A stretch of DNA of 33,107 nt from a virus. Position numbers and translations under genes: made by a program. The DNA is taken from the IMG/VR virus record IMGVR_UViG_3300030085_002040, positions 1 to 33,107 of that record; one strand, 5' to 3'. The notes under the pieces were generated by a model. The model did no database searches. It worked only from the letters and a program-made list of their open reading frames with translations, and was not told the DNA's origin. Numbering within the stretch: the first letter of the stretch is position 1; each line of letters starts with the position of its first letter. Below are positions 1,176 through 19,744 of the stretch, piece after piece.

Positions 1176-1177
1176 AC

Positions 1178-2029: not shown

Positions 2030-2031
2030 TT

Positions 2032-2047
2032 GTAACGACTTCGTTAC
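2032..2047 (+). promoter_or_regulatory. hairpin just before a start codon
   Basis: A perfect 6-bp inverted repeat, GTAACG and CGTTAC around the loop ACTT, ends two bases before the ATG at 2050. It occupies the place where a Shine-Dalgarno sequence would be and no T-tract follows, so it is not a terminator. It may modulate translation of the next gene. Confidence 0.4.
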
Positions 2048-2049
2048 TT

Positions 2050-2727
2050 ATGGCTGCACTAATTTGTAACCTACCTTCTGTTGAAGTATGGGTAAGAAAA
2101 GAATATCTCACTGATCACCAAAGTGGTCATGGTGAATTTGTTAAGGGCGTCTGGGTGTCGTGTAAATCGATCCCTGGACGTGCTTTTTATTTTGAGACAT
2201 ACTTACCAGAGTATGCGGCAATGTATGATAAACTGCCTATCAGTGCCTTTGTAAGCGAACCTGAGACCCCTTCACCTGATATGAACCTACCTAACCTACA
2301 ATTCTGGAATTGTATGGACTATGGCGTCGTATCTGTAACCAAACAATTCATTGGTTCAATGGATTTTGAGTTATATACTAGGGACCATGGGATTCAAAAA
2401 GGTACTTATATCTGTACCATTGATAATTATCACCAGGATCCTGATACAATTGATTATGCAACCAGTGAAAATCCTGCTGAACACAAGTCTCATAACTTAA
2501 TTGAACTTGATAATGGACAATATGCACTCTATCCAAACAATAGAATGCGTATTTTTGACAATAGTCTGACACCAGAGAATCCGAAGATGCCTGATTTTAA
2601 GGTATCAACGCAATATTATAGTGTTGAGAATGGTTTTGACCGTCTTGGTATGGGACGTGAAGACGAATACTTCTGGAAAACAGCAAAAGAACGTAATTTA
2701 GAGGAGGACAATGAAGAGGACACCTGA
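2050..2727 (+). CDS. hypothetical cyanophage protein, 225 residues
   Basis: A soluble acidic protein with no domain that I can name. It has a beta-rich N-terminal half (CNLPSVEVWVRKEYL, then GRAFYFETYLPEY). A middle section is rich in D, N and Y (YICTIDNYHQDPDTIDYATS). The tail is charged and helical (WKTAKERNLEEDNEEDT) and overlaps the start of the next small gene by 17 bases. I recall a similar protein upstream of gp25 in T4-like cyanophages, which suggests a conserved phage role, perhaps late. No signal peptide, membrane segment or catalytic motif is visible. Its start has no ribosome binding site and is preceded by a small hairpin. Confidence 0.75.
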   Translation: MAALICNLPSVEVWVRKEYLTDHQSGHGEFVKGVWVSCKSIPGRAFYFETYLPEYAAMYDKLPISAFVSEPETPSPDMNLPNLQFWNCMDYGVVSVTKQFIGSMDFELYTRDHGIQKGTYICTIDNYHQDPDTIDYATSENPAEHKSHNLIELDNGQYALYPNNRMRIFDNSLTPENPKMPDFKVSTQYYSVENGFDRLGMGREDEYFWKTAKERNLEEDNEEDT

Positions 2728-2821
2728 AGAATTAATCGAATTTGAGAAGAAACTCAAGCGATTAGCAGATGAAGAACGAATGAAAGAAGAAGGATTAAAG
2801 GAGCAAGAGGAAAATGAATGA
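2711..2821 (+). CDS. 36-residue charged helical protein
   Basis: A very short frame beginning MKRTPEELIEFEKKLKRLAD and rich in E and K throughout, almost certainly one amphipathic helix. GAGGAGGA (2701-2708) is an excellent ribosome binding site for the ATG at 2711. It starts inside the 3' end of the 225-residue gene in another frame and overlaps the next small gene by 8 bases. The strong ribosome site and chained overlaps support translation; function unknown. Confidence 0.55.
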   Translation: MKRTPEELIEFEKKLKRLADEERMKEEGLKEQEENE

Positions 2822-2993
2822 TTTTTTAGACAACATGGCAAACCATCAACACCAAAAAATGCTTCGTGAGATCGCAGAAGACGATCTGACACCCAAAAAG
2901 AAGGATAAAAAGGTCGAACAAGAGATCTGGGAGAGAGTTGATACTGGTGATGCCTCACCAGGAGTATGGACAAGAGATATCATCCGTGAGTGA
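2814..2993 (+). CDS. 59-residue hypothetical protein
   Basis: A short frame, MNDFLDNMANHQHQKMLREI and onward, ending WTRDIIRE. It is helical and charged, with a lysine patch (PKKKDKK) near the middle. AGAGG (2806-2810) precedes the ATG at 2814. A second ATG at 2818 is in another frame and stops after three codons. It is the third of a chain of overlapping frames and ends 6 bases before the late promoter of gp25. Function unknown. Confidence 0.6.
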   Translation: MNDFLDNMANHQHQKMLREIAEDDLTPKKKDKKVEQEIWERVDTGDASPGVWTRDIIRE

Positions 2994-2999
2994 TACCCC

Positions 3000-3007
3000 T
3001 ATAAATA
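3000..3007 (+). promoter_or_regulatory. T4-type late promoter upstream of gp25
   Basis: TATAAATA, the exact T4 late promoter -10 element read by the gp55 sigma factor with gp33/gp45 help in T4, lies 29 nt before the ATG of gp25. It is followed by AGT, matching the context TAAATAAGT also seen at 6905 and 18164. It begins the baseplate operon. Confidence 0.8.
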
Positions 3008-3036
3008 AGTCAGAACATACTATACAAACATAAATA

Positions 3037-3438
3037 ATGCCTTTAGAAGGGGTAAGTCAGGGTTTTAAGGATATAAGTGCATCATTTAAAAGTCATCCAT
3101 TGACTAATGATGCAATTGCTCTTAAGAATGCATCTGCAGTAGCGCGATCTGTTCGTAATATTGTGATGACTTTCCCTGGAGAGAAACCTTTTAACCCTAC
3201 CTTCGGTTCAAAGATAAGTAAATCACTTTTTGAGAACATTGATAACATTTCGGCCATTACAATAAAGGACGAAATTGCAAATTCCATTCGTAGATTTGAA
3301 CCTAGAGTTATCTTGGACGATCTTATCGTCAAACCAGACTTTGACAATAACTCTTTTGACGTATTAATTGTTTATAGAATTGTTGGAATTAGTATTCCAG
3401 CACAACAGTTAGAGTTTGTATTACAATCGACTCGATAA
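3037..3438 (+). CDS. 25: baseplate wedge protein gp25
   Basis: A 133-residue homologue of T4 gp25 (132 residues), the small wedge subunit with a lysozyme-like fold that contacts gp6 and the sheath/tube start. The conserved core is clear: KPFNPTFGSKISKSLFEN (residues 50-67) corresponds to the T4 segment RPFDPEFGCDLSDQLFEN. IRRFEPRV (86-93) corresponds to VRNYEPRI. Length and position before gp6 agree with cyanophage baseplate operons. The stop codon TAA is directly followed by the ATG of gp6, so the two are probably translationally coupled. A TATAAATA late promoter is 29 nt upstream. Confidence 0.95.
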   Translation: MPLEGVSQGFKDISASFKSHPLTNDAIALKNASAVARSVRNIVMTFPGEKPFNPTFGSKISKSLFENIDNISAITIKDEIANSIRRFEPRVILDDLIVKPDFDNNSFDVLIVYRIVGISIPAQQLEFVLQSTR

Positions 3439-5370
3439 ATGGCACTAGTAAATTTCGCAAATCTGGATTTCGACCAGATAAAGTCCACCTTAAGAGAATA
3501 TCTTAGGAATAATTCTAATTTTACGGATTATGACTTTGAAGGATCGAACCTGTCAAGTATTTTAGACGTTCTGGCCTATAATACTTACATCACATCATAT
3601 AATGCGAATATGGTGTCTAATGAATGCTTCATTGATAGTGCCACATTGAGAGAAAATGTGGTCGCATTAGCAAGAAATATTGGATATACCCCTAGATCTA
3701 GAAAAGCAGCAACTGCTTATATTAGTTTTTTCGTTGATACAACAGGAATTACACCTGCACCTGTATCAATTACACTAAACAGAGGACCAATTGCAACGTC
3801 TTCTGGTACTTTTGGCAATGAATCATACATTTTCTCTATTTTAGACGACGTAACTATCCCTGTTGTAGACGGAATTGCAACAGTTGACTTCCTTCCAATC
3901 TATGAAGGCGTCTATTTGACGGAATCTTACACATATAGTTCCAGAAATCCCAATCAGAGGTTCTTAATTAACAATGCAGGTGCTGATACTGACTTAATTA
4001 GAGTCAGAGTACGTACAAATAGTGGCACTGCACAACAAACTTACACTCGTCAGGATAGTTTGTTTGAAATTGACGCAGATTCTAGAGTATTTTTCCTTCA
4101 AGAAGTTGAAGATGAGCGTTATGAGATCATTTTTGGTGACGGAATCTTTGGAAAATCACTTTCTGAAGGAAATATTGTCGATATTGACTACTTGACGACT
4201 ACTGGAGGCGCTTCAAACGGCGTAAGTTCATTCAGATTCAACGGAAGAATGACTTATGTGAGAAATGGAGTCGAATATACGGTCACTCAGGGCATTTCAC
4301 TGCTTACAACTGACATTGAATCGGATGGTGGAGACGTAATTGAGAAAGTTGACTCAATTAAGAAGTTTGCACCAAGGATTTATGCGTCTCAAAACCGTGC
4401 ATTGACTGCAAATGACTATGAAACGCTGATTCCAGCAAGAATTTATCCAGAAACTGAGTCAATTTCCGTTTTTGGTGGCGAAGAATTGGTTCCACCACAG
4501 TATGGTAAGGTTTTTATCAGCATTAAACCCAGAAGTGGCGAATTTTTGCCCAACTTGATCAAGGAAAACATCAAGAGAGACCTGAAAAAGTATGCGGTTG
4601 CTGGAATTGTTCCAGAAATCCTTGATTTGAAGTATTTGTACCTCGAAACTACTTCACAAATCTACTATAACAAAAATCAAGCACCATCTGCATCCGAAGT
4701 TTCTTCGATTATTCAGAATAATGCGAATGCTTATGCAGATTCAAGTGAAATGAATAAGTATGGCGCAAGATTCAAGTACAGTAGGTTCCTAAAACTGATT
4801 GATGATAGTCATGATTCGGTTACATCCAACATTACCTCTGTAGCAATGCGTAGAGACGTTAGGGCTGCCCTTAACCAACTCGCAGAGTACTCTATAGGGT
4901 TTGGTAACCAATTCCACATCTCCTCTATGGATGGATTCAATATCCGTTCTAGTGGATTTAGAGTTGCTGGTGTTAATAATACCGTATATCTGGGGGATGT
5001 TCCAAATACTGATAGACAATCTGGTTCATTGTTCCTCTTTACCTTAGATAGTCCCACTTCTACGGTTCCAACAATCGTAAGAAGAAACGTTGGCTCCATT
5101 GATTACGTAAAAGGAGTTCTTACACTCTTCCCAATCAATATTCAGGCAACACTTAAGGTTATTGACGGTCAATCAACCATTCAGATATCAATAGCACCTC
5201 TGTCAAATGACGTGGTAGGTCTTCAAGACCTTTACCTTCAACTTGATGTAAACAATAGTGTGTTTGAGATGGTTAATGATACGATTGCTTCTGGATTAGA
5301 CCCATCAGCATCGACTTACACAGTTTCGTCAAGTTACAACTTCAATAATGGTTTACTTGTAAGAGCATAA
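3439..5370 (+). CDS. 6: baseplate wedge protein gp6
   Basis: A 643-residue homologue of T4 gp6 (660 residues), which dimerises to form the iris that joins wedges around the baseplate hub. The N-terminus (LREYLRNNSNFTDYDFEGSN, then LAYNTYITSYNANM) matches the T4 gp6 motifs around DYDFEGS and LLAYNT. Later segments FGDGIFGKSLSEG, QNRALTANDYETLIP (about 312-326) and VFISIKPRSGEF are hallmarks of the gp6/gpJ-like wedge family. The C-terminal region (DSPTSTVPTIVRRNVGSIDY) also follows T4 topology. It abuts gp25 and is separated from gp7 by one base. No inserted modules are evident, unlike gp7, gp8 and gp14, which fits its buried position. Confidence 0.95.
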   Translation: MALVNFANLDFDQIKSTLREYLRNNSNFTDYDFEGSNLSSILDVLAYNTYITSYNANMVSNECFIDSATLRENVVALARNIGYTPRSRKAATAYISFFVDTTGITPAPVSITLNRGPIATSSGTFGNESYIFSILDDVTIPVVDGIATVDFLPIYEGVYLTESYTYSSRNPNQRFLINNAGADTDLIRVRVRTNSGTAQQTYTRQDSLFEIDADSRVFFLQEVEDERYEIIFGDGIFGKSLSEGNIVDIDYLTTTGGASNGVSSFRFNGRMTYVRNGVEYTVTQGISLLTTDIESDGGDVIEKVDSIKKFAPRIYASQNRALTANDYETLIPARIYPETESISVFGGEELVPPQYGKVFISIKPRSGEFLPNLIKENIKRDLKKYAVAGIVPEILDLKYLYLETTSQIYYNKNQAPSASEVSSIIQNNANAYADSSEMNKYGARFKYSRFLKLIDDSHDSVTSNITSVAMRRDVRAALNQLAEYSIGFGNQFHISSMDGFNIRSSGFRVAGVNNTVYLGDVPNTDRQSGSLFLFTLDSPTSTVPTIVRRNVGSIDYVKGVLTLFPINIQATLKVIDGQSTIQISIAPLSNDVVGLQDLYLQLDVNNSVFEMVNDTIASGLDPSASTYTVSSSYNFNNGLLVRA

Positions 5371-5371
5371 A

Positions 5372-6907
5372 ATGTCAGAAACTAGAGTAGAATTCAAAAC
5401 TATCGTAAAACACCAACTTCCCGACTATGTTCGGGATGAGTTTCCTCTTCTTGGTGAGTTTTTATCACAATATTACTTGTCCCAAGAGTTTCAAGGGGCA
5501 CCTGTTGATTTAATTCAAAATATTGACAGATATATCAAACTCAATACGAATGCGACTACAATCAATTCGACAAGATTGAGAACTGACGTTACTGATAGTG
5601 CTTCTACCATATCTGTAGACAATACTGCTGGATTTCCTGATCAGTATGGTCTTCTTAGGATTGGAAATGAGGTAATCACATATACAGGAAAGTCTACGTA
5701 TCAATTTACTGGTTGTGTTCGTGGATGGTCTGGTTATGTACATCATACGACCAATGACCAGTTTGTTTTTTCTGATACTCTAGCAGAAACTCATTCAAAA
5801 CTTGATACTGTTGAAAACTTAAGCGTTAGTTTCCTTACTAAGTTTTTAACAAAGGCAAAATATCAACTTCTCCCTGGATTAGAAGATACTAAACTCTTCA
5901 GCACTCTTAATAAGAATCTTTTCCTGAAACAGGCAAAGGATTTTTATACTTCAAAGGGAACAGACGAATCATTCAAGATTCTTTTCAAGGCATTATATGG
6001 CGAGGACGTTGAAATCGTCAGACCATCGGAAAATCTTCTTACACCATCAAATTCTCTGTATAATATTACCAGAGATATGATCGTAGAACCAGTTGCTGGC
6101 AATATTGAAGATATTGAGGGGTATACGTTATATCAAAATTCATATGGAGATACTATCTTCAAATCATATGCCCCAATTGTTCGTGTAGAAAGAATTTTGG
6201 TTGGTGGAGCATCAACGGACTATTATAAAGTCAGTTTTGACGCCAACTATAATAGAGATCTTCAATATAACGGTGCAGAGTATGGTTCTTTTGTGTCATA
6301 TCCTAAAACAAGACTGATTGGAGATTATGCAGAAGATGCGACTACCTTTGATGTTGATTCAACTGTAGGATTTCCAAAGTCTGGTGAATTAAATGTCACT
6401 TATGCTGATAGGACTATTGGAATTGTAACTTATACCTCAAAATCATTGACACAGTTCTATGGACTTTCTGGTTTAACTGATGGAGTTAGTGATAATACGC
6501 CAGTTGGAGTCAATACCTCTGCTTCTGTAACATTGAATACTGGAGAAGTGATACAAATGAAGATTACCAATGTCTTATCAGACTTCCATGCTGGAGAACT
6601 GGTTGGATGGGTAGATGGTAATCCATATTATGGTCCATTCCATGTTCATATGAATAGAAAGATGGTTGGAGCGAAACATGTGAGAACTCCACATGCATAC
6701 ATATACGATACTAAGGAAGAAAGTCTACGGAACCCAAGTGTAGCGTCGGCAACCGTCTCTACAACCCCAACACAACAACTTGCTTCGACAACTAGCAGCA
6801 ATACATCGAGCACTACAACTAGCACTGGTGCCGCTAGTGGAGGTACTAGCGGTGGCACATCTGGCGGCAGCACAGGCGGCGGTGGAGGCGGTGGATACGG
6901 GTACTAA
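5372..6907 (+). CDS. 7: baseplate wedge protein gp7, short form with inserted modules
   Basis: A 511-residue protein that matches only a C-terminal part of T4 gp7 (1032 residues), the wedge initiator that binds gp8, gp6 and gp10. The key match is KDFYTSKG (about 189-196) and LFKALYGEDVEI (about 204-215), against T4 FYSTKG and LFKVLYNEEVEI. The segment FPLLGEFLSQYYLSQ near residue 24 fits the helix preceding it in T4. A beta module (72-134, DNTAGFPDQYGLLRIGNE and CVRGWSGYVHH) splits these two parts. A second degenerate copy lies at 315-381. GNPYYGPFHVH (416-426) begins a YHYH-like segment, and the last ~30 residues are a Ser/Thr/Gly tail ending GGGGGGGYGY. One base separates it from gp6; its stop overlaps a late promoter motif. 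Confidence 0.85.
   Translation: MSETRVEFKTIVKHQLPDYVRDEFPLLGEFLSQYYLSQEFQGAPVDLIQNIDRYIKLNTNATTINSTRLRTDVTDSASTISVDNTAGFPDQYGLLRIGNEVITYTGKSTYQFTGCVRGWSGYVHHTTNDQFVFSDTLAETHSKLDTVENLSVSFLTKFLTKAKYQLLPGLEDTKLFSTLNKNLFLKQAKDFYTSKGTDESFKILFKALYGEDVEIVRPSENLLTPSNSLYNITRDMIVEPVAGNIEDIEGYTLYQNSYGDTIFKSYAPIVRVERILVGGASTDYYKVSFDANYNRDLQYNGAEYGSFVSYPKTRLIGDYAEDATTFDVDSTVGFPKSGELNVTYADRTIGIVTYTSKSLTQFYGLSGLTDGVSDNTPVGVNTSASVTLNTGEVIQMKITNVLSDFHAGELVGWVDGNPYYGPFHVHMNRKMVGAKHVRTPHAYIYDTKEESLRNPSVASATVSTTPTQQLASTTSSNTSSTTTSTGAASGGTSGGTSGGSTGGGGGGGYGY
5585..5772 (+). repeat. GFP-IG-E beta module in gp7 (copy 1)
   Basis: Codes for residues 72-134 of gp7. The pattern is a short beta lead (ASTISVDNTAGFP), a central LLRIGNEVITYTG, and a closing CVRGWSGYVHH. 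The same pattern occurs at 6314-6514 (gp7), 15083-15286 (giant), 26060-26287 (DUF4815 protein) and 30597-30803 (gp15). It is protein-level similarity; DNA identity is low. Confidence 0.65.
6314..6514 (+). repeat. GFP-IG-E beta module in gp7 (copy 2, degenerate)
   Basis: Codes for residues 315-381 of gp7: DYAEDATTFDVDSTVGFPKS, then GIVTYTSKSLTQFYGLSG. It keeps the VDSTVGFP lead and the VTYT strand but lacks the RG turn of copy 1. Confidence 0.55.
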
Positions 6908-6910
6908 ATA
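6904..6910 (+). promoter_or_regulatory. late promoter motif overlapping the gp7 stop
   Basis: CTAAATA contains the TAA stop codon of gp7 (6905-6907) and lies 24 nt before the ATG of the giant gene. The 14 bases TAAATAAGTAAAAA (6905-6918) recur exactly at 18164-18177 before gp8, supporting a common extended late element. Confidence 0.65.
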
Positions 6911-6934
6911 AGTAAAAATGTCTCTAAGGCAGAT

Positions 6935-9900
6935 ATGTCGCAGCAGTTGAACAGCAAATATTACGAAAAGGATGATGTCATCCTAGTACAGACTCTTGGT
7001 ACTGTCGCAAAGGACGTTGCGGCAAATTCTTGGGTATTTAACTCTGCCACAAGTTATAAAGCAGAGAAACTTGAACTGATCAATTCTGCTAGTTACAGAT
7101 ATAGAGCAACTTTAACGTCTGAGCACATCTTCAAGGTTGGAGATAAGATTTCTATCACTGGAAGTGGTGGACTGAATGTTACTGGAAAGATATATTCTGT
7201 AACTGGAGCAAAAGAGGTTACTTTTGGCGATCAGGGTAATCTTGGTTCCTATCCTGCTTCATCTTTGACCATCAAGAGAGTTCTGTCAAAAGCAGACTTC
7301 AAAAATTTCGGTGTAGATAACTTAGTTACTGACGTACAGAACGTATATAAAAGAAGAGACGACATTTTAGTAGCAACCTCGTCCCTTCCAAACTTTGACA
7401 CTAAATTACAGACAAAACATCCCATTATAACTTTCAGTGGCACATTCCCACCAACAGGAACTGCTGCAACAGATACTTTTAAGATCGTATCAACAGGTGA
7501 TCATGGTTTTTACACTGGTGATCCTGTTTATTACAAACCACAGGTCATAACAACAACATCTACGGATATTGACGGCAATACTGTCACAACAACTGTTGTC
7601 CAAGATGGTATTGTTGAAGAAGGAATCTATTTCATAAAAAGAACCAACGATCCAACAGAGATTAAGTTAGCAAAAAGTAGAACCGAACTCTATAACAACA
7701 CGTTCATAACTACTGAACCAGTCACTGTTACTGACAACACTCTTGTATATTATGATTTTTATGGAAAAGACCTAGAGAACCAAAAACTGTTTAGAGAGAT
7801 TCCTAAGCAGAATAATAACCTGAATAGAACTGAAACTGTACCTGGATCAAAGAATGCTATCCTTGCAGATGGTGTAGAGGTACTTAACTATAAGTCAACC
7901 GATTTTATTCATTACAATAAATTAGAAAAAATCTTTGTTGACAGTTCTGGTGGCGGTTATGATGTAATTAATCCACCAAATCTTGTAATTTCGGACGTAA
8001 CTGGTATTGGTGCTACTGGACACGTCAGAGTCAATGGAGCATTTGATAGAATTGATCTCCTTAGTGGTGGTTTTGACTATGTTGACGTTCCCACTGTCAC
8101 TATCACTGGAGGTAATGGTCAAGGTGCCACTGCGGATGTAAATACTAGACTTATCACTCATGCAGTAGACTTTAATGCTGAAGCCAAATTTAATCTGGTA
8201 AACTTAACGGACAATAGCATTGGGTTTAACACATATCACAAATTCAGAGATCAAGATAAGGTAATCTACCAGACCAATAGCGGTGATGGTATTACTGGAC
8301 TTGTTACAGGCGCGTCGTACTACGTTTCTGTCGAAAATGCCACTACAGTCAAACTCTACAATAGATATGACGACGCTGTTTCAGGTATTGCTACAGTAGC
8401 ACTGACTGGATATGGTATTGGAAGACATACTCTCCTTGCAGAGAATCCTAAGAGAGTTATAAGTGCAATTAACGTTGTAAATCCAGGAACTGGATATGAA
8501 ACAAACCAGACAACAGTTTCTGGTATATCTACAGCACTGAATCGTCTTACAATCACCGATCACGGATATTCTTCTGGGGAAAAGATTGTATATTCCACTA
8601 GCGAAACAGTTATTGGCGGTCTTACTTCTGGAACAGAATACTATGTCAATGTTGTAGACATCAACACCATTCAATTATCCGAAGTTGGTCCTACAAGTGA
8701 TCCAGAAAAGAATTATAGACAAGCAACATATGTAAATCTTACCACACCATATAGTGGTGTTCATAGTTTCAATTATCCCGCAATTGCAGTAACAGTTTCT
8801 GGCCAGATTGGTATTGGTGGAACTATTTCTGTAGATGACTATAGAGCGACATTCAATCCTGTTGTTACGGGAGAAATCACTGCGGTAAACCTGGAAGATA
8901 AGGGAGTTGGTTATGGTTCTTCCGAAGTTATCAATCATATTCGCACACCTGAGGTAATCGTTCAAACTGGATCGGCTGCACAATTAGACCCAGTGGTTGA
9001 TGCCAATGGTCAGATTATTCAAGTAATCGTTCAAAATGGTGGTAAAAACATCAATGCTATTCCAAGAGTTGATGTAGTATCTGATAGTGGATCTGCTTGT
9101 GTTTTAGTTCCAGAGATTTCTGGAGGTCAAATTACTAGAGTTAATATTCTCAACAAAGGATCTGGTTATATCGCTGGAGAAACATCTATCGCTGTAACAT
9201 ATCCTGGAGAAGGTGTTCTCTTTGAACCAGTTCTTCAAACTTGGAATATAAACAATTATCAGAAACATATTGTAAACGTAGAATCCGATGATGGATTTGT
9301 AGATAGTTCTCTTGATTCTGATTATGGCATTCAGTATGTCCATTTGTATAGTCCTAGACTTTTAAGACAGAAACTGTATACAAAAACATTGGATGCGGTA
9401 ACTCTGTATAATAATACAGATCTTGCTCTTGAAAATGGTGCAGAAAAACTAACGTCAAAGAACCACTCTGCAATTATTGGATGGGCCTATGATGGCAATC
9501 CAATTTATGGACCATTTGGTTATATTAACAAGTCTGGTGGCATTGTTGCTCAGATGAGATCTGGGTATGAGTTGTCAATTCAACCTAATAGACCACCCCT
9601 CTCAATCTATCCCGCTGGATTCTTTATAGAAGACTATACTTACATCGCATCTTCCGATGATAGAGTTCTTGATGAAAATAATGGCAGATATTGCGTAACT
9701 CCAGATTTTCCAAATGGAACATACGCTTATTTCTCAACATTAGCAGAGACCACCAATTCCCAAGGTCCTTTTGCAAAATACAAAGAACCACAGTTCCCAT
9801 ATTTGATTGGTAAGTCTTTACATTCCGTTCCTTGTCCTTTTAATTACAAAAAATCTTCCAATCAGGATTCTTATGACATTCAGGCAAATGGTTGGATAAG

Positions 9901-12900
9901 AAACACCAAGTATTACAATCTGGATGAAGATATTGCATCATACCAGTATGTTGAAAGACCATACAAACTCAGTAACAACCAGATTTCGGAAGTTACCTAT
10001 GCTTCACCTGGTTCTATTGATTATGTTGGTATTTTAACTGGCGGAAGAAACTATAAGGTAGATGATGCTCTGGTTTTCCAAGAGGCAGGGACCGATGGAT
10101 TTGGTGTTGACATCAGAGTATCTAAAGTTGGTGGTAAAGAAGTATCGCAGATTAGTTGTGCAACTACTGAGACAAATAATGTTGAGGTTGTTCCTGTAGG
10201 AGCAGGAGAATACTTACTTTATGCAGCAGATCCTCATGGATATACTAAATCTGAACTTGTTTCAATTAGTGGAGTAAGCACTTCAAAAGTTGACCTTGCT
10301 GGTGTCTACAGAGTTGGTATTTCCACAAGATCTTTTGCTTTGAGATCTGCTATTGGAACAGTTGGGGCAACAGGAATCGTAACTTACTTCCCAATCTATG
10401 CAAATGGACTTGATGGCATTGAAGAGAATGATATCTTTGAGGTAGATGATGAAAAAGTCAAGGTTCTCAATATTGACAGAATATCAAGTAGACTTAGAGT
10501 TCTGAGAGAGGTTGCTAGCACAACTGGAGCAGCACATACTGCAGGCGCTCTTGGAAATGAGGATGCTAGAAAGTTCAGTGCTACAATTGGATTTAAAACG
10601 ACCTTTGATTTCCAGCGTAATAGAGAATTGTATTTTGACCCACAAAATGCTGTTGCTATTGGAACGGCAGTTGGCGTAGGAACAACAATCGTATTTGTAA
10701 ATCCTGGATCTGGCGCTACAAATGTATTTGCTCCTGCCAAGAGTCTTTATATTCCAGGACATGGACTGAAGACTGGCGATGAACTGGAATATAACTTGAA
10801 TGGCGGTGCTGGTATCGTTTACAACGAACCAAACAACGTCGGAGTCGCATCTACACTTCAAGATGGTCAGAGAGTCTTTGTTGCAAGACTGACAGACGAC
10901 TTTATTGGTATTGGAACTGTCAAAGTTGGTCTTGGTTCTACAGGAACATTCGTTGGAGTTGGAACTACAACGTCATCCCAAAGCACAGTGTTCTTCACTG
11001 GTGTTGGAACTGGACTGAACCATAGTTTCACTACAGTTTATCCAAATGTGATTACAGTAACCTCTTCTAAGAACGTCGTAACGGTTGCAACTTCATCCAC
11101 TCACGGACTTCAAGCAACAGACACTGTTTTCGTTGACGTAAGACCTTCTATTGCTGCTACCGTAGCAGTATCTTACAATGACTTCAATAGAAGAGTAGTT
11201 ATTAACAAAAAAGATGTCCTTGCTGCTGGCATCTCAACTACTACCAATAAAATTACAATTGCCGATCATGGTTATGACGAAGGTCAAGCATTAATCTATT
11301 CTGCAACAACTCCAGCAGGCGGATTGACTAATCAGGCAATTTACTATGCAATTATCAATGATAAAGATACTATTCAGTTAGCATCTACTTATGAAACTGC
11401 TACAAAGAATGTTCCAACTGTATTGAACATTTCTGAGGCGCAGGATTCTACATTCTCACCAATTAACCCACCAGTTAAACTTTACAAGGATCAGTCTGTA
11501 GAGTTTGACATGTCAGATTCAAGTCTTTCTTTCACGTCAAACAGCATTCAGTATCCTGCGTTTAAGTTGGGTATCTTTATTGATGAAAGATTCACAACAG
11601 AGTACAACAAACCCGAAACCACTGAAGACTTTGATGTTGTTGCAACAGGAACTGTTGGTCTTGATGGTAAAGTGACTCTGACTCTTAGAGAAGAGACTCC
11701 AAAGGTACTTTACTACACTTTGGTTCCAATTAACAATGATACCTTACCAACCAGGAAGTCTGAGGTTATTTGTGATAAGTTGATTTACAATTATAACCAA
11801 CTTCAGGTACTTAATAGCGAATATTCTGGAAAGTATAAAGTCTCTGTCACTACTCCTACAGAATTCCAGTATTTCATACCAGAAGCTCCAGAAAAGAGTT
11901 CATATACTTCTACAAATGGATTGATCAATTATATCACATCATCTAGAACTGGAATTGGATCTATTGCAGAACTTAGAACTTTCAATGGCGGAGTAAACTA
12001 TAAGAAACTCCCAAGAATCTCTAGTGTTACTACTGGAATCGGTTCAAATGCTGCATTTGAAATTTCTAGTGATACAATCGGTGTAGTTCAGAGAACTAGA
12101 TTAAGAAGTATTGGATTTGACTATCCATATGATAAGACTCTGAGACCAAGTGCCAAACTTCCCGAAATTCTTAAGATTGACAAACTTGCAATTCTTGATA
12201 ACGTTGGAGTTACTTCTTATGGTTATGGTTATGGATCTATTGCTCCAAAAGTTCTTCTCTTTGATGGAGAAACTGGAGAACAATCGACAGAAGTTGATCT
12301 TGAATTCAAGTTTGGAACTAATCAACTCACGATTATAAGAAACACATTTGGCATTACTCCTGTAGAACCAACCTTACTTCCAACTGGAAATACTAATGGA
12401 GTTGGCATTTCTTCCTTATCATACAACTCTTCAACCAAAGATGTTTATGTAACCCTGAATACTGGGTTTACTACTGCCAATACCTTCCCATTTGAAGTTG
12501 GCGATAAAGTTATGGTAGAAAGCACCAATGTTGGTATTGCTTCTACTGTCCAAGGTGCTATACAATTTATTCCTACTGGAAAAGGATACAACAGTGAAGA
12601 CTATAACTATAAACTATTCACTCTTACTGCAGTTGATGCGAATGTGGGTGGAATTGGCACAATGGCATTCAATCTTTCGGAGTTCCTTGAAGATGGAGAA
12701 GCGCCAGGTACATTTAATAGTCTGAAATCTGCAGGAAGAATTATTCCAGAAAAGCACTTCCCAACATTTGATGTTGCGTTGACTTCAACTGGATTTATTG
12801 CTGGAGAAGATATTATTTGCTTAGACGATTCCACTATGACGGGTGTTGTTGAGTCTTGGGATGGCGCAAATGGATATCTGAAAGTAAGAACTAGTAAAGA

Positions 12901-15900
12901 GTTCACAGAAGGCCATATCGTCGAAGGTCAGTCTTCTGGTTCTAGAGGAACTATTTCTTCTGCCATCAGATTTGCAGCAAATTATGACGTTGATGCCACA
13001 TCTAGGTTTGAAAACGGATGGGATGACGTAAGTGGATTCCTTAATGATAGTAGACAGGTCATTCAGGATAGCGATTACTATCAGAAGTTCTCTTATGCTC
13101 TGAAGTCTAGAATTGACATGGAAGATTGGGATGAACTTGTCGGTTCATTAAACCATACTTCTGGATTTAAGAGATTCTCTAACTTGGTAGTAGAAACAAC
13201 TGCTGAAGGTGGACCTGCCGTTGTTGGTCTTGGAACGACTACTTACTTCGATAAACTCATCGACTTTATCAGTGATATTGATCTTAATTGCTACTACAAC
13301 TTTGATAATGTAAGAGAAAATAATAAGGACGGACACCATCATGGATTGTCTGATCAGATTATCTTTGAAAATCAAATTCTAACTGATTATTCACAATCAA
13401 CTGGAAATAGAGTTCTTAACGTTGATAATGTTGCAGATACCTTCAACAGCAACCCTAGAGTAACAAGATTCAAAGAGATTGCAGAATGGAATATTGATGA
13501 TGTTAAAGCGAATAAATTTGTAATCTATATCCAAGACGTACAATACAATAATGAAGCAGAACTTGGAATGGTTAGTGTTCTCACTAACGTTGACGCTGAA
13601 GGATACATCAACCAATATGGTGATATTGAAACTGTAGGCCATCTTGGAGACTTTGAATTCTCTGCAACAGGAAACACTGGTCATTTGAGGTTCTACCCAA
13701 CTAAGTGGGAAGACAATAACTACAATGTCTTTGCAGTACAGTATGCTGTTGGCGCAGATGCTGGAGGAATCAATACTCACTTTGGTGGTTCTGTTAATAT
13801 TGAATCTGGATTCACAACTTGTAACCCAGGATCAGCAACCAATATCGTCAGTTTTGGATCAACGTATCAAGCTGCTAAGATTCTTGCAGAAGTCTGCCTT
13901 GCTGATGGAGAGCAAGAATTTGTAGAAATGACTCTTATTCATGATGGTTCTACGGTAGGAATTTCTCAGTATGGTCAACTGTGTAGTACTAGTGGCCCTT
14001 CAAATTATTCCCAGCAAGCAGGATTTGGAACATTCTTCCCATACATTGACGGATCAAATATTAAGATTGACTTTACTCCAGATGCAACTGTCTCGGTTGC
14101 ATGTACTGTTGCAACTAACATTGTTGCAATTTCTTCAGAAGGAGCAGGTATTGGTTCATTCGGTCTGAAGCACGCTGTAATCGGTGCATTTGATCCCGTA
14201 TCAATCTCCGCAAGTGGTTCTCCAACTGCTACCAACATTGCGTTCCATAATAATGACGCATTCAACGGTTGTTATTACATTGTCGAAGTATCTGATCCAG
14301 ACGCCAACCAACACCAGATCTCAGAACTTCTTGTTCTTGATCAAGGACCTGACTTCCCAGGCGTAACCTATCATAATGAATTTGGATATGCTGCTAGTGA
14401 TTTGACTCCAAATAGTGGACTTGGAACCTTTGGAACTGGCATTTCAGGAGACTTTGCAACTCTGACATTCACTCCTGCTGCAAATAGAAATGTTGAGGTT
14501 AGAGGTTTCTATAATCACATTAGAAATATTGATCCAGATGCTGCAGACAACACACTTCTTTTACCTGCATCATACATTAAGTCGCAGTTTGGTCCATACA
14601 CCGCTGCTACCGCTGACGTTAAGAGAGCATTTGGATTGACCTATCAAGGTTACAATGTATTTGAAAGATATGTTGACGCAGAAGATGCAGTTGCTATCGG
14701 TGCCTCTTCTAGTTCTGATGTAGAGGACGCAATCAATCTTCCAAACCACTTCTTTGTAACTGGTGAGAAGATTTCTTATTCAACTTTGGGTGCTGGTACA
14801 ACAGAGAATATTAACATCGCTTCTCAGAATGTAAGTGGTTTTGGAGTTACTGATAAAATGCCTTCTACGGCATATGTCATTAAAGTCGATGCCAACAACA
14901 TCAGACTTACAGATACTCCAACAAAAGCACTTCAAACTATCCCAGAATACTTTGACATTACTTCAGTTGGTATTGGTAATTCTCACAGATTTACAGCAAC
15001 CAATCAGAATGCTAAGTGTCTGATTGCCGTTGATAACTACATCCAATCACCTGTTGTTGGAACAGCAGTTACATTCGCTGTTGTTGATCAACTTCTGTCT
15101 AGTTCTGACGATCTTTACCTTGCAGGCATTACTTCAATCACTGGAGGAGATCTTCTTCAGGTTGAAGATGAGATTATGAAGGTAAGATCAGTTGGTGTTG
15201 GTAGCACTAATGTTGTTTCGGTAGATAGAGCATGGTTGGGAACTCTTCGCGTAACTCACTCTTCTGGAACTGTTGCGACTAAGGTTCAAGGCAACTATAA
15301 CATTGTCAACAACACTCTAAACTTTGTTGAAGCACCTTACGGTAACAATCCACTCTCTACGACTACAAATCCACCAGACGAAAGAGACTGGACGGGTATT
15401 ACTACAAGTTCTACATTCCAAGGAAGAGTGTTCATCAAGAGTGGAACTCCTGGTGCTACAGTTGACACATATTCTAACAACTATGTCTTTGACGATGTAT
15501 CTGAACAGTTCACAGGAACGAATGATAAATTCCCACTCAAATTTGAGGGTTCAAATACGACTGGATACGCAGACGATAATGCATTAGTCTTAATCAATGA
15601 CATTCTGCAGGTTCCTGGACTGAACAATAACTTCACTCTCGCAGAGAATGCAGGAATCACATCAGCATTGTTCATTAATGATGATCAAGTTCCAACCTAT
15701 GACATTAACTCAGTTAATCTTCCTGTTGGTGGCGTAATTGTATCTGTCGGTTCTTCTGAAGGATTTGGTTATCAACCAAGACTAGGAGCAGGCGGTACTG
15801 TAACCGTCTCTGCTGCGGGAACAATCTCCGCAGTTACAATCGGAAGCACAGGTTCTGGTTACAGAGCTGCTGAGTCATATGACATCGAAACCACTATCAC

Positions 15901-18127
15901 AACTACGGTTGCCGCTGGTGCTACAGTAATGACTATCGATAATAAGAATAGCGTCTTCAAGATTCTTGAATTCAATGTCGGTAGTGCTTCCTCAATCGGT
16001 GTTGGAACATTCTTCAGCAGACCCACTCCAATCATTTCTGTCGGAGCAACTTCTGTCAATATTGGAATTGGAAGCACAGCATCCGTTGAAATCCCAGCAG
16101 GAACCACTGCATTCGTCAGAGTCTTCAACCCAACTGTTGGTGTTGCAAGAGTAGGCGTTGCAAGCAGTTCTGTTGGTATCGTTACGACCACACATATTGG
16201 TATTGCTTCTATTAGTGGCGGTCACCTGCTCCCAACAGTTCATATTACAAGCGTTGGTAGTGGTTATACTAGCACGATCCCACCAATGGTCAATGTTGAA
16301 GAACCTCTTGCTTATGACAACATTCCTCTGATCTATCAGACTGACGGTCTTGCAGAAGCATCTACGGGTGTTGGTACACAAGCAAAACTTACCTTCAATG
16401 TTGGATTTGGATCTGAAATTACTGACTTTGAATTATCAAATACTGGATTTGGATATGCTCCAGGTCAGACTCTTACAATCCCAACTGGAGGAGCAACTGG
16501 AATTCCTACAGATCCAACTCTTGGTGGAGACTTTAGAAGATTCTCTCTTGAAGTTAAGAAGCAGTTTACCGATAAGTTCTCTGCTTGGAGTGTAGGAGAA
16601 CTCCAAACACTAGATAATTTTGCTAGTGAGTTTGATGGTGTCACTAAGGACTTCCAGTTGAGAATTGCAGGCAATATTACGTCAATTATTGCTGCTCAGG
16701 GATCGCCAATTAATGTTCAAGATGTTCTGATTGTTCTTTATAACAACATCCTGCAAATTCCTGGAGAAGGTTATCAGTTTGAAGGTGGTAGCACGATCAT
16801 CTTCCCAGAACCACCAAAACCTGGCGATACTTGCGAAATTCTCTTCTACAGAGGAAATGGTGACGTTGACGTACAGGATATTGATATTCTTGAGACTGTC
16901 AAAGAAGGCGATACTCTCCAGATTGTAAATGACACATCTCGTGGTCAGACAATCTATCTGGAAGAAGATCCAAGACTTGTTTATAGCGTAGATGCAACCG
17001 ACAGAGTTACAACTAATGCATATTATGGTCCTGGCAATACTTCAGATATTAATTTGGAAAGACCAGTAATCTGGTGTAAGCAAACCGAAGACGTAGTAAT
17101 CAACGGTAAGAGAGTTGCAAAAGATAGACCTCAATACAAGGCAAATATCTTCCCAACCACAAATATTATTCAAACTGTTGGAGTTGGTTCTACTACAATA
17201 TATGTCGAAAATGTACGTCCTCTGTTCACGCAGGCAAATGAAAATGATACCTCTGTCGTATTCCAAAAAGATCTCCTGCTGATTTCACAAGACGCAAGAG
17301 TTGGTGCTTCTGCTACCGCAATTGTCGGAACTGCTGGATCAATCACATCAATCGCTATCAGTGATGGTGGTGTTGGTTATACAACTGCCCCAACGGTTAC
17401 TATTGGCAACCCAGTCGGTCTTGGTTCTGATCAAAGACAGACTGCAACTGCAACAATCACTAATGGCGTTGTTACTGCAGTCAATCTTGGAACTGCTAAG
17501 ACTGGATATGCATCGACAACTCCTCCCGTAGTTCTTATTGAACCTCCTACACCTCTGATCGAAAGAATTAACGCAGGAATCACCTTCGCGGGCGACTTTG
17601 GAACTATCGTTGGCGTTACAACAACAAACGTCGGTGTTGCAACTGGACTCGTCTTCCAGTTCTTCATTCCAAATGATTCCCCATTCAAGGATGCTACGCT
17701 TGTAGGAACTGCTGACACTGTATCTACAATTGCCGCAGGTGACTTCTTCGTTGTCAGTGAGTCCAACATTGGTCTTGGCGTAACTTCACTCAAACCAGGT
17801 GGAGTAGTTGCAGTCGGTGTCGGAACCACTTGTATCGACAACGTATATGAAGCGGTATCAGTAGCACAGGCACAAAAGACTCTGCCTGGATATGGTCAGA
17901 CAACTGTAGTCAACGTTACGGTCAGCGTCTTAAGTTACAATGGTTATGACTTCTCTTCACTTGGAGTCAATACACACTTCGGTAATTATAGTTTCGGTAA
18001 GATTGAAACTGCAGGAAGAACATCCACATTACCATTCAATTCATACTTGGATAATGGTCTGACTGGACTGTCAACTTCTGCACAACTTAGAAGAACTCTG
18101 CCACTGAAGATTTCCAATTACGGGTAA
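6935..18127 (+). CDS. giant modular virion protein (baseplate periphery), 3730 residues
   Basis: One uninterrupted frame between gp7 and gp8, so most likely an outer baseplate or fibre-network protein. In order I see: HG-x-GD-Y modules (~182-256, 426-485, 533-586, 1437-1489, 2600-2667); GxGY beta repeats (~338-403, 510-530, 647-761, 1676-1778, 2931-2990, 3097-3186, 3471-3547); and a YHYH-like segment DGNPIYGPFGY at 853-863. Further on are a segment with DSDYYQKFSYALKSR (~2045), GNRVLNVDN (~2155) and three tandem ~120-residue repeats (2193-2530). A GFP/IG-E module lies at 2717-2784. Two gp10-like NNILQIPG/NDILQVPG modules are at ~2864-2918 and ~3238-3315. There is no signal peptide, membrane segment or enzymatic motif. 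T4 has nothing of this size here; multi-kilobase structural ORFs are known in cyanophages. The start has only a weak AAGG ribosome site. Confidence 0.85.
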   Translation: MSQQLNSKYYEKDDVILVQTLGTVAKDVAANSWVFNSATSYKAEKLELINSASYRYRATLTSEHIFKVGDKISITGSGGLNVTGKIYSVTGAKEVTFGDQGNLGSYPASSLTIKRVLSKADFKNFGVDNLVTDVQNVYKRRDDILVATSSLPNFDTKLQTKHPIITFSGTFPPTGTAATDTFKIVSTGDHGFYTGDPVYYKPQVITTTSTDIDGNTVTTTVVQDGIVEEGIYFIKRTNDPTEIKLAKSRTELYNNTFITTEPVTVTDNTLVYYDFYGKDLENQKLFREIPKQNNNLNRTETVPGSKNAILADGVEVLNYKSTDFIHYNKLEKIFVDSSGGGYDVINPPNLVISDVTGIGATGHVRVNGAFDRIDLLSGGFDYVDVPTVTITGGNGQGATADVNTRLITHAVDFNAEAKFNLVNLTDNSIGFNTYHKFRDQDKVIYQTNSGDGITGLVTGASYYVSVENATTVKLYNRYDDAVSGIATVALTGYGIGRHTLLAENPKRVISAINVVNPGTGYETNQTTVSGISTALNRLTITDHGYSSGEKIVYSTSETVIGGLTSGTEYYVNVVDINTIQLSEVGPTSDPEKNYRQATYVNLTTPYSGVHSFNYPAIAVTVSGQIGIGGTISVDDYRATFNPVVTGEITAVNLEDKGVGYGSSEVINHIRTPEVIVQTGSAAQLDPVVDANGQIIQVIVQNGGKNINAIPRVDVVSDSGSACVLVPEISGGQITRVNILNKGSGYIAGETSIAVTYPGEGVLFEPVLQTWNINNYQKHIVNVESDDGFVDSSLDSDYGIQYVHLYSPRLLRQKLYTKTLDAVTLYNNTDLALENGAEKLTSKNHSAIIGWAYDGNPIYGPFGYINKSGGIVAQMRSGYELSIQPNRPPLSIYPAGFFIEDYTYIASSDDRVLDENNGRYCVTPDFPNGTYAYFSTLAETTNSQGPFAKYKEPQFPYLIGKSLHSVPCPFNYKKSSNQDSYDIQANGWIRNTKYYNLDEDIASYQYVERPYKLSNNQISEVTYASPGSIDYVGILTGGRNYKVDDALVFQEAGTDGFGVDIRVSKVGGKEVSQISCATTETNNVEVVPVGAGEYLLYAADPHGYTKSELVSISGVSTSKVDLAGVYRVGISTRSFALRSAIGTVGATGIVTYFPIYANGLDGIEENDIFEVDDEKVKVLNIDRISSRLRVLREVASTTGAAHTAGALGNEDARKFSATIGFKTTFDFQRNRELYFDPQNAVAIGTAVGVGTTIVFVNPGSGATNVFAPAKSLYIPGHGLKTGDELEYNLNGGAGIVYNEPNNVGVASTLQDGQRVFVARLTDDFIGIGTVKVGLGSTGTFVGVGTTTSSQSTVFFTGVGTGLNHSFTTVYPNVITVTSSKNVVTVATSSTHGLQATDTVFVDVRPSIAATVAVSYNDFNRRVVINKKDVLAAGISTTTNKITIADHGYDEGQALIYSATTPAGGLTNQAIYYAIINDKDTIQLASTYETATKNVPTVLNISEAQDSTFSPINPPVKLYKDQSVEFDMSDSSLSFTSNSIQYPAFKLGIFIDERFTTEYNKPETTEDFDVVATGTVGLDGKVTLTLREETPKVLYYTLVPINNDTLPTRKSEVICDKLIYNYNQLQVLNSEYSGKYKVSVTTPTEFQYFIPEAPEKSSYTSTNGLINYITSSRTGIGSIAELRTFNGGVNYKKLPRISSVTTGIGSNAAFEISSDTIGVVQRTRLRSIGFDYPYDKTLRPSAKLPEILKIDKLAILDNVGVTSYGYGYGSIAPKVLLFDGETGEQSTEVDLEFKFGTNQLTIIRNTFGITPVEPTLLPTGNTNGVGISSLSYNSSTKDVYVTLNTGFTTANTFPFEVGDKVMVESTNVGIASTVQGAIQFIPTGKGYNSEDYNYKLFTLTAVDANVGGIGTMAFNLSEFLEDGEAPGTFNSLKSAGRIIPEKHFPTFDVALTSTGFIAGEDIICLDDSTMTGVVESWDGANGYLKVRTSKEFTEGHIVEGQSSGSRGTISSAIRFAANYDVDATSRFENGWDDVSGFLNDSRQVIQDSDYYQKFSYALKSRIDMEDWDELVGSLNHTSGFKRFSNLVVETTAEGGPAVVGLGTTTYFDKLIDFISDIDLNCYYNFDNVRENNKDGHHHGLSDQIIFENQILTDYSQSTGNRVLNVDNVADTFNSNPRVTRFKEIAEWNIDDVKANKFVIYIQDVQYNNEAELGMVSVLTNVDAEGYINQYGDIETVGHLGDFEFSATGNTGHLRFYPTKWEDNNYNVFAVQYAVGADAGGINTHFGGSVNIESGFTTCNPGSATNIVSFGSTYQAAKILAEVCLADGEQEFVEMTLIHDGSTVGISQYGQLCSTSGPSNYSQQAGFGTFFPYIDGSNIKIDFTPDATVSVACTVATNIVAISSEGAGIGSFGLKHAVIGAFDPVSISASGSPTATNIAFHNNDAFNGCYYIVEVSDPDANQHQISELLVLDQGPDFPGVTYHNEFGYAASDLTPNSGLGTFGTGISGDFATLTFTPAANRNVEVRGFYNHIRNIDPDAADNTLLLPASYIKSQFGPYTAATADVKRAFGLTYQGYNVFERYVDAEDAVAIGASSSSDVEDAINLPNHFFVTGEKISYSTLGAGTTENINIASQNVSGFGVTDKMPSTAYVIKVDANNIRLTDTPTKALQTIPEYFDITSVGIGNSHRFTATNQNAKCLIAVDNYIQSPVVGTAVTFAVVDQLLSSSDDLYLAGITSITGGDLLQVEDEIMKVRSVGVGSTNVVSVDRAWLGTLRVTHSSGTVATKVQGNYNIVNNTLNFVEAPYGNNPLSTTTNPPDERDWTGITTSSTFQGRVFIKSGTPGATVDTYSNNYVFDDVSEQFTGTNDKFPLKFEGSNTTGYADDNALVLINDILQVPGLNNNFTLAENAGITSALFINDDQVPTYDINSVNLPVGGVIVSVGSSEGFGYQPRLGAGGTVTVSAAGTISAVTIGSTGSGYRAAESYDIETTITTTVAAGATVMTIDNKNSVFKILEFNVGSASSIGVGTFFSRPTPIISVGATSVNIGIGSTASVEIPAGTTAFVRVFNPTVGVARVGVASSSVGIVTTTHIGIASISGGHLLPTVHITSVGSGYTSTIPPMVNVEEPLAYDNIPLIYQTDGLAEASTGVGTQAKLTFNVGFGSEITDFELSNTGFGYAPGQTLTIPTGGATGIPTDPTLGGDFRRFSLEVKKQFTDKFSAWSVGELQTLDNFASEFDGVTKDFQLRIAGNITSIIAAQGSPINVQDVLIVLYNNILQIPGEGYQFEGGSTIIFPEPPKPGDTCEILFYRGNGDVDVQDIDILETVKEGDTLQIVNDTSRGQTIYLEEDPRLVYSVDATDRVTTNAYYGPGNTSDINLERPVIWCKQTEDVVINGKRVAKDRPQYKANIFPTTNIIQTVGVGSTTIYVENVRPLFTQANENDTSVVFQKDLLLISQDARVGASATAIVGTAGSITSIAISDGGVGYTTAPTVTIGNPVGLGSDQRQTATATITNGVVTAVNLGTAKTGYASTTPPVVLIEPPTPLIERINAGITFAGDFGTIVGVTTTNVGVATGLVFQFFIPNDSPFKDATLVGTADTVSTIAAGDFFVVSESNIGLGVTSLKPGGVVAVGVGTTCIDNVYEAVSVAQAQKTLPGYGQTTVVNVTVSVLSYNGYDFSSLGVNTHFGNYSFGKIETAGRTSTLPFNSYLDNGLTGLSTSAQLRRTLPLKISNYG
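13511..14522 (+). repeat. three tandem ~120-residue repeats within the giant protein
   Basis: Protein-level tandem repeats start near 13511, 13871 and 14267. Each has an opening strand (KFVIYIQDV / KILAEVCLAD / YYIVEVSDPD), a central strand with EMTLIHDG or ELLVLDQG, a tyrosine turn (QYG / QYG / YHN) and a closing LRFYP, IDFTP or LTFTP. Units are 120 and 132 codons apart. Copy 1 is the most diverged. Confidence 0.65.
15083..15286 (+). repeat. GFP-IG-E beta module in the giant protein
   Basis: Codes for giant-protein residues 2717-2784: LYLAGITSITGGDLLQVEDE, then VSVDRAWLGTLRVTHSSGT. It preserves the lead strand, the x-VEDE-I core, and the R-x-x-x-GT...H-x-x-GT closing pattern seen in gp15 and the DUF4815 protein. 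Confidence 0.6.
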
Positions 18128-18187: not shown

Positions 18188-19744
18188 ATGGCTGCAATTA
18201 TAACTGATCAAATTAGAATATTGAATGCCAGGAACTTTCTGTCTGGCGTGACTACTGCTGGTAGTTCTTATTATTCTTTTATTGGATTGCCAAACGCAAC
18301 TGATATTCAATCTGATTGGGATAATGCTCCTCCAGCACCCATTGATAACTTTGATTATCAGAATGAGGTTTGGGAAACAGTAATTGGTCTTAAGAAGATC
18401 ACTGCTAGTGATGCCAGGTTGGTTGTACCCAAGATCACTTGGAGATCTGGTAATACATATGATCTGTATCGTCACGATTACACGACATCAAATAGTGCCA
18501 AGGTTTCGGGTGCAACCAATCTTTATGGTTCATTCTTCTATGTAATGAACAGTGATTATAGAGTTTATATCTGTCTTCAGAACGGAACATCACCAGAAAA
18601 TCCAAATGGTGCTCCATCTCTTGACGAACCAACATTCGTTGACCTCGAACCAAGAGCAGCAGGCGCAAGTGGAGACGGTTATATTTGGAAGTATCTGTTT
18701 ACTATCAGCCCTTCTGATATTGTAAAATTTGATTCTACAAATTACATTCCCGTCCCAAGTGATTGGTTTACCTCTACGGAGAATGCTGCAGTTAGAGACA
18801 ATGCTGTAAATGGTTCGATTAAGACTGTAATCATCAACAATAGAGGATCAGGTGCTGGTGCGGCAAGTACAGCATATTATAATGTACCTATCAAGGGTAA
18901 TGGAACTGGTGCAGAATGTACCATTACAATGAACGCTGATTCACAAATCAATAGCGTTGTTATTTCTAATCAAGGTTCTGGTTATACCTGGGGAAATGTT
19001 GATCTTGCTGCAGGTGGAGTTCCAACAGGAACTACTCTTCCTGTGCTTGACGTAATTATTGGTCCAAAAGGTGGACATGGCGCAGATATCTTTAGAGAAC
19101 TTGGAACAAAGAATGTTCTTCTCTACTCTAGATTTGAAAATGATATTCAGAATCCTGACTTTATTACAGGAAACCAGGTAGCAAGAGTTGGTATCGTAGA
19201 AGCACCAAATACCTACGGAACCAGTTCACCTTTCCAAGGAGACAAAGCTAGCGCAGTTACTGCTTTGAGATTGACTGGTACTGGATACAGTTCTGCAACT
19301 TATACCGCAGACTCTTTTGTATCACAGACCGTTTCCACGGGAACTACTGCAATTGGAAGAGTCGTTAACTACGACCCATCAACTGGCGTATTGAAGATCT
19401 GGCAAGATAGAACCCAGTCTGGATTTACAACTGTTGGCGTAGCAAGCACAAGTCCACAATATGGTTTTGATCAAGTTGACTTTACTTCATCTCCAGGAAC
19501 AGATGGTTCTTTGACAATTATTGGTGGATCTGTATCTGGTGGATTGTCAATTGACAGCACATTTACGGGTGTATCAACCGTAATAAATAATAGAACATTC
19601 TACCTTGGTCAATCATTTACTAATGGAATTGCAAACCCTGAGGTTGCAAAATTCTCTGGCAATATCATTTATGTTGACAATAGACCTAACGTGACAAGAT
19701 CAACCAATCAAAAAGAAGACATCAAGGTTATATTACAATTCTAA
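18188..19744 (+). CDS. 8: baseplate wedge protein gp8 with central insertion
   Basis: A 518-residue homologue of T4 gp8 (334 residues), a wedge subunit that dimerises and binds gp7 and gp10. The N-terminal ~205 residues follow T4 gp8, including GDGYIWKYLFTISPSD (T4: GDGYVWEYLFEIPPD). The last 27 residues, IIYVDNRPNVTRSTNQKEDI and the terminal VILQF, match the T4 C-terminus (IYMENRPP...TEEINILFTF). Between them, residues ~211-490 contain GxGY beta repeats (VIINNRGSGAG, VVISNQGSGYTWG, LRLTGTGYSS) and other beta strands that T4 lacks. Net excess over T4 is ~185 residues. The gene has its own late promoter pair upstream and is followed after 9 bases by the DUF4815 gene. Confidence 0.93.
   Translation: MAAIITDQIRILNARNFLSGVTTAGSSYYSFIGLPNATDIQSDWDNAPPAPIDNFDYQNEVWETVIGLKKITASDARLVVPKITWRSGNTYDLYRHDYTTSNSAKVSGATNLYGSFFYVMNSDYRVYICLQNGTSPENPNGAPSLDEPTFVDLEPRAAGASGDGYIWKYLFTISPSDIVKFDSTNYIPVPSDWFTSTENAAVRDNAVNGSIKTVIINNRGSGAGAASTAYYNVPIKGNGTGAECTITMNADSQINSVVISNQGSGYTWGNVDLAAGGVPTGTTLPVLDVIIGPKGGHGADIFRELGTKNVLLYSRFENDIQNPDFITGNQVARVGIVEAPNTYGTSSPFQGDKASAVTALRLTGTGYSSATYTADSFVSQTVSTGTTAIGRVVNYDPSTGVLKIWQDRTQSGFTTVGVASTSPQYGFDQVDFTSSPGTDGSLTIIGGSVSGGLSIDSTFTGVSTVINNRTFYLGQSFTNGIANPEVAKFSGNIIYVDNRPNVTRSTNQKEDIKVILQF

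Follow-up and report, generated by a model that had tools for sequence, protein, structure and literature searches.

The longest gene of the window, a 33,107-nucleotide stretch that makes up nearly all of a 33.4-kb viral fragment, encodes a 3730-residue protein that, judged by homology, is the displaced C-terminal 90% or so of the giant gp7 of marine T4-like cyanophages, split off just after the T4-like core. This result corrects the previous reading of the gene. We place at about four in five the probability of the full interpretation, in which these C-terminal nine-tenths of gp7, the wedge initiator, became a gene of their own through a lineage-wide split, the core holds the wedge, and the giant is a docked peripheral arm, probably made from its own late transcript and carrying a YHYH domain that is probably structural. 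The observed components of this interpretation are homology to single-frame gp7, a split confined to one clade, a conserved stop codon, late motif and new ATG, and purifying selection. Giant gp7 is already annotated in isolates, and the kind of protein is in this respect ordinary; what is new is its form: throughout one clade gp7 is split, and the split has a late-promoter motif of its own and a shared cassette at the end of the core. No description of a gp7 split was found in the papers searched, which does not prove that none exists.

Relationship of the giant gene to gp7

An earlier, sequence-only reading of the window proposed one frame of 3730 residues, and the gene is indeed a single frame, open from ATG to TAA (Table 1). 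That reading also considered an artefact joining separate frames; the same open frame recurs in independent contigs of viruses and in isolate genomes, and is not an assembly join. In comparison with locus L003, dN/dS is 0.05-0.13 in each 500-codon block of the giant (3323 shared codons) and 0.043 in the upstream core gene, and both genes are under purifying selection. Phage records matching the 511-aa core protein number 468. Matches fall from 461 for the first 2000 residues of the giant to 120 for its last 1730, so variability lies at its far end. A megablast search of the giant gene against phage records found no counterpart, which is unsurprising for proteins about 43% identical, and an NCBIfam search gave no family.

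The names of the flanking genes, gp25, gp6, the gp7 core and gp8, stand, and a head-tail adaptor, head closure protein, sheath stabiliser and terminase small subunit are also encoded around the giant. The description of a real, giant, modular protein of the wedge region with no T4 counterpart of its own was likewise accurate. The claim that failed is that of an extra gene between gp7 and gp8, because core and giant are elsewhere two parts of one gp7. On the 4179 positions of PHROG 2885 ("baseplate wedge subunit"), whose place directly after gp25-gp6 and before gp8 the two genes occupy, the 511-aa protein aligns to 5-404 and the giant to 407-3359 (2917 bits), a match that takes in both proteins end to end. 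The single gp7 CDS of S-SM2 (4156 aa) spans core residues 1-406 and giant residues 6-3729, the latter in one piece at 43% identity by tblastn. Both parts are also in one reading frame in Bellamy (4067 aa) and in one CDS in S-SCSM1 (12,363 nt, 4120 aa), and in all three phages this CDS sits directly after gp6.

The gp7 "baseplate wedge initiator" of S-SM2, Bellamy, P-TIM68 and S-SCSM1 therefore resembles the pair of genes in its position after gp25-gp6, in domain order, in 34-50% identity across both parts and, where tested, in the location of the YHYH domain. It differs in being one reading frame (4067-4156 aa where measured in S-SM2, Bellamy and S-SCSM1), with neither a stop nor a His-rich tail at the core boundary. 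These fused relatives bear directly on the alternative favoured by the sequence-only reading, in which the giant would be an accessory wedge or fibre-like protein in its own right, added between gp7 and gp8. Such a protein would explain why the giant has its own start and its own predicted late promoter and does not match T4 gp7. However, the giant lines up colinearly with the single-frame gp7 of relatives both near and far, and the nearest outgroups are fused, which refutes an origin by insertion; we consider this alternative very unlikely.

Similarity to T4 gp7 in sequence is found in the 511-aa neighbor and not in the giant. With phmmer on PDB, the core matches T4 gp7 at E=0.0039 (5hx2) and E=1.9e-4 (9f4a), and a profile search gives E=1.7e-6. 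The two share the segment FYxxKGxxxSxKxLFKxLYxxxVEI (T4 726-767), and their folds are colinear up to around residue 843 (PDB 5hx2, 5iv5). T4 gp7 differs in having 1032 aa, more than 600 of them ahead of this segment, and in lacking the giant C-terminal part and any YHYH match. An AF2 model of the core, too weak for claims at a pLDDT of 53, is colinear with T4 gp7 763-842 (Z 6.7 over 79 residues, rmsd 2.8), a score that would not be convincing apart from the sequence match, and Foldseek with this model returned nothing at E<0.001. The giant matched neither T4 gp7 nor solved chains at E<=1, whether by sequence or by a profile of residues 1-1200, and its identity as part of gp7 is consequently drawn from the fused relatives.

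These observations bear on a paper on pelagimyophages according to which cyano- and pelagimyophages have no T4 gp7 and carry VrlC in its stead (PMC7029224). The genomes compared here are of the cyanophage type; they encode a T4 gp7 core, with VrlC/DUF4815 as a separate gene, and for this group the core match argues against the published claim. The second giant of the window is of this DUF4815/VrlC type; a 2446-aa protein with the name "baseplate wedge tail fiber connector" has been detected in S-SZBM1 virions (PMC9146016).

Table 1. Features of the window, with coordinates in the numbering of the 33,107-nucleotide stretch
Feature	Position	Strand	Basis or remark
gp25	starts 3037		profile searches
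gp6, baseplate wedge	3439..5370	+	PF21379, phrog_219
gp7 core gene, 511 aa	5372..6907	+	PHROG 2885, T4 gp7 matches
T4-gp7-like core, residues 1-405, ending at split	5372-6586	+	PHROG 2885 5-404, T4 gp7 matches
His-rich cassette GWVDGNPYYGPFHVHMNRKMVGAKHVRTPHAYIYDTKEESL at split core C-terminus	6596..6745	+	limits approximate; recurs in gp5, gp6, fused gp7
Ser/Thr/Gly-rich tail, end GGGGGGGYGY	6746..6904	+	GYGY or GYSY ending conserved in split loci
CTAAATA, predicted T4-type late promoter	6904..6910	+	overlaps last core codon and stop; within invariant 16-nt block 6902-6917
AAGG, possible ribosome-binding site	6926..6929	+	5 nt before giant ATG; sequence; spacer partly conserved
Giant gene, 3730 aa, C-terminal ~90% of cyanophage gp7 by homology	6935..18127	+	PHROG 2885, tblastn to S-SM2 gp7
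Small beta-barrel, residues 37-119	7043..7291	+	AF2 local pLDDT about 80
HG module copy 1, residues 182-261	7478..7717	+	seed
GY module pair, residues 332-406	7928..8152	+	seed
HG module copy 2, residues 427-500	8213..8434	+	seed
HG module copy 3, residues 536-612	8540..8770	+	seed
GY module, residues 626-664	8810..8926	+	E=0.0013, not seed
GY module pair, residues 694-767	9014..9235	+	seed
YHYH domain lacking the namesake HxH, residues 837-939	9443..9751	+	PF14240, 82.9 bits (cut-off 25)
HG module copy 4, residues 1438-1490	11246..11404	+	E=6e-11, not seed
GY module, residues 1684-1730	11984..12124	+	E=0.006, not seed
HG module copy 5, residues 2604-2681	14744..14977	+	E=0.0018, not seed
GY module, residues 3158-3196	16406..16522	+	E=0.0023, not seed
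GY module pair, residues 3470-3538	17342..17548	+	seed
gp8, baseplate wedge	18188..19744	+	PF09215, phrog_438
Second giant, DUF4815/VrlC-type, 2513 aa	19754..27295	+	PF16075, phrog_358

The split junction and its late-promoter motif

Loci containing both parts comprise 21 split and 36 fused rows, some of which are near-copies, and the numbers are therefore counts of loci, not of events. A 100/100 branch of the maximum-likelihood core tree separates the split rows from all others, and the outgroups nearest to them are fused. A single polypeptide is the usual form of PHROG 2885, although not a universal one, since B23 has two genes; in the 21 split loci it is interrupted by a stop, a spacer and a new ATG. 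The core ORF in these loci has 417-520 codons, and the giant begins 23-30 nt further on with ATGTCG(C/A)AGCAG.

The block TACTAAATAAGTAAAA, which runs across the core stop and holds CTAAATA, is invariant in 21 of 21 split loci; none of the 24 fused loci checked has a CTAAATA 60 nt or less from the junction. The window contains five CTAAATA sites (6904, 18134, 27525, 29835 and 31313), all on the + strand and all within 60 nt (14-47 nt) upstream of gene starts (p about 6e-10). Among 105 permutations of its letters, CTAAATA has the most sites before gene starts, and the runner-up, ACTAAAT, overlaps it. In form (TATAAATA or CTAAATA-like) and in its placement just upstream of late genes, the motif agrees with a T4-type late promoter. 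It is identical to the late promoter motif reported for Aeh1 (PMC1524935) and resembles NATAAATA, that of S-PM2 (PMC2984593). The giant is thus predicted to have its own late promoter at the split, from which, given the motif match, it would probably be transcribed. Together, the five sites provide a predicted late-promoter map of the operon.

The split might be only apparent, if ribosomes or a bypass joined the two frames or if the stop were a sequencing error, and the two ORFs do share a frame in the window, L002-L006 and L075. However, other members of the clade have a different frame relation. Because core and giant stand to each other in frame 0, 1 or 2 depending on the split contig, neither readthrough nor one shift could join them in all loci, and we rejected programmed frameshifting or bypass. 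Moreover, the stop, motif and ATG are common to 21 loci, and the core has a conserved C-terminal tail. An apparent split is barely credible on this evidence, and we retain the interpretation of two genes.

Synechococcus phage B23 likewise carries its giant homologue in two genes (2845 and 1081 aa), but its break is elsewhere, near residue 2525-2596 of the window's giant and with a 4-nt overlap, and is independent. Breaks in B23 and other places indicate that the giant tolerates cutting at more than one position. In S-SSM7 (L088), two genes are called gp7, with a 340-aa ORF between them; the second (67650-76655) encodes about 3000 aa. S-SKS1 was left out of the count as a split candidate; it has several frame changes, which may be sequencing errors, and no annotated CDS.

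Modules and the YHYH domain of the giant

The giant is beta-rich and modular. Modules were sought with three-seed HMMs at E<0.01, using 20 sets of block-shuffled decoys as a control. The sequence-only reading had listed several repeated module types, of which two were recovered: "G-GY-PP" (GY) modules occur six times and "HGF-TGD" (HG) modules five times, with 0 and 1 decoy hits, respectively. A third type, RG, had two seeds only and was inseparable from decoys, which scored too; it is not claimed. A run of about four GY modules also follows the conserved N-terminal part of the head-closure protein (28405-29832). An AF2 model of giant residues 1-1200 (pLDDT 58) is usable only for small beta-barrels, and Foldseek with this model found nothing at E<0.001. 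The barrel at residues 37-119 gives a VIA Z of 9.9 over 76 residues when compared with the N-terminal barrel of the V-ATPase B subunit, a likeness of fold only.

In jumbo phages, YHYH is predicted to be a tail-associated metal-dependent (Zn) hydrolase (PMC7824862). An enzymatic role for the giant on this model is suggested by the PF14240 score, well over its cut-off, and by H844 (the histidine of HSxIIGWAYDG), D853 and LDxNNGR, which are invariant in all 29 phage rows. However, cellular YHYH proteins (Acidobacteriia) read EYHYHDNP at the motif, with both histidines, and these two are absent at the aligned positions in 29 of 29 phage rows with residues there. Of the hydrolase triad of histidines and aspartate, where the choice of residues is our own reading of PMC7824862, one of three predicted histidines is left, plus D853. 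Since two of three predicted metal-binding histidines are missing, the domain is probably structural, and a Zn-hydrolase role in the giant appears unlikely from the residues retained. YAYF at 930-933 was examined as a decayed YHYH motif and ruled out, because cellular proteins also have YAYF there; the genuine motif position is some 40 residues N-terminal to HSPI.

A gp7-type YHYH protein is also encoded by a 188,235-bp contig of the Nonlabens xiamenensis assembly (L112, NZ_RMVE01000006.1), which may be a T4-like phage genome contained in a bacterial assembly. Several MAG contigs (L097-L111 except L109 and L110) look like it.

The proposed wedge arm and the tail cassette of the core

In T4, a segment of gp7 holds the wedge core together with gp6 and gp25. 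The 511-aa core, which matches this segment, would do the same job, and the 3730-aa part would form a long, beta-rich peripheral arm of the wedge that docks on the core with no covalent link. A peripheral wedge arm expressed apart from the core is the most likely role of the giant. A protein of this length might reach far out from the baseplate or wrap around it, as the sequence-only reading supposed. For fused relatives, the default would be a 1:1 ratio of giant part to gp7 and, should the T4 plan apply, six copies per baseplate. The split lineage has lost the covalent link. This natural cut of a giant wedge protein shows at which point core and arm can be produced separately, and with it the docking and copy number of the arm become open to testing.

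Virion mass spectrometry covers fused relatives; the phage of the window is known only from contigs. S-SZBM1_208 (6619 aa), a fused gp7 homologue by our homology check, yielded 71 peptides and 13.5% coverage (PMC9146016), and S-CREM2 ORF122, identified as a fused homologue by position, yielded 91 unique peptides and 27.2% coverage (PMC10665884). It is conceivable that in relatives a protease cleaves fused gp7 at the same boundary, and that the split gene makes genetic what was post-translational; the position of the split directly behind the T4-like core and the conservation of each part as a unit would fit this. Nevertheless, each giant appears in the published tables as one entire ORF, partially covered (PMC9146016, PMC10665884), and we regard such processing as doubtful.

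A C-terminal extension of about 100 residues is present on the core in 20 of 21 split loci. It is His-rich at first (consensus GWVxGxPYYGPxHxHxxRKMVGAKHVxxPHxYIYDTKE), followed by a Ser/Thr/Gly run and a GYGY-type end. The remaining locus, L020, has the split, the promoter block and a GYSY end without the His-rich part, and is sister to the other split loci with weak support (83/55). The split may therefore be older than the cassette, or the cassette may have been lost in L020.

Several contigs encode gp5-like proteins that end in the same cassette as the split core. The C-terminus of S-SSM7 gp5 has 70% identity over 45 aa to it, then a Ser/Thr/Pro/Gly run and a GGYGGGY end, although here the cassette sits on the central hub/spike protein and not on a wedge protein. 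The gp5-type tail of L077 also ends GGATACTAAATA, gp6 ends in the cassette in L047-L049, and the fused gp7 of L083-L085 has an insertion near residue 573 that consists of the His-rich part alone. A cassette common to gp5, gp6 and gp7 constitutes an unexplained, portable end piece of baseplate proteins. We tentatively suggest, as a minority possibility, that such a portable 3' end (His-rich mini-domain, Ser/Thr/Gly linker, GYGY, stop and built-in CTAAATA), as found on gp5 and gp6, was captured inside gp7, where it would have ended the core, given the rest its own promoter and freed the giant arm from a fixed 1:1 ratio to the core.

As a unit of about 45 aa, GxVxGxPYYGPFHxHxxxKMVGAKH, the His-rich part was seen on gp5, gp6 or gp7 in L077, L078, L081, L082, L058, L047-L049 and L083-L085. 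Its GNPYYGPF resembles GNPIYGPF of the YHYH domain.
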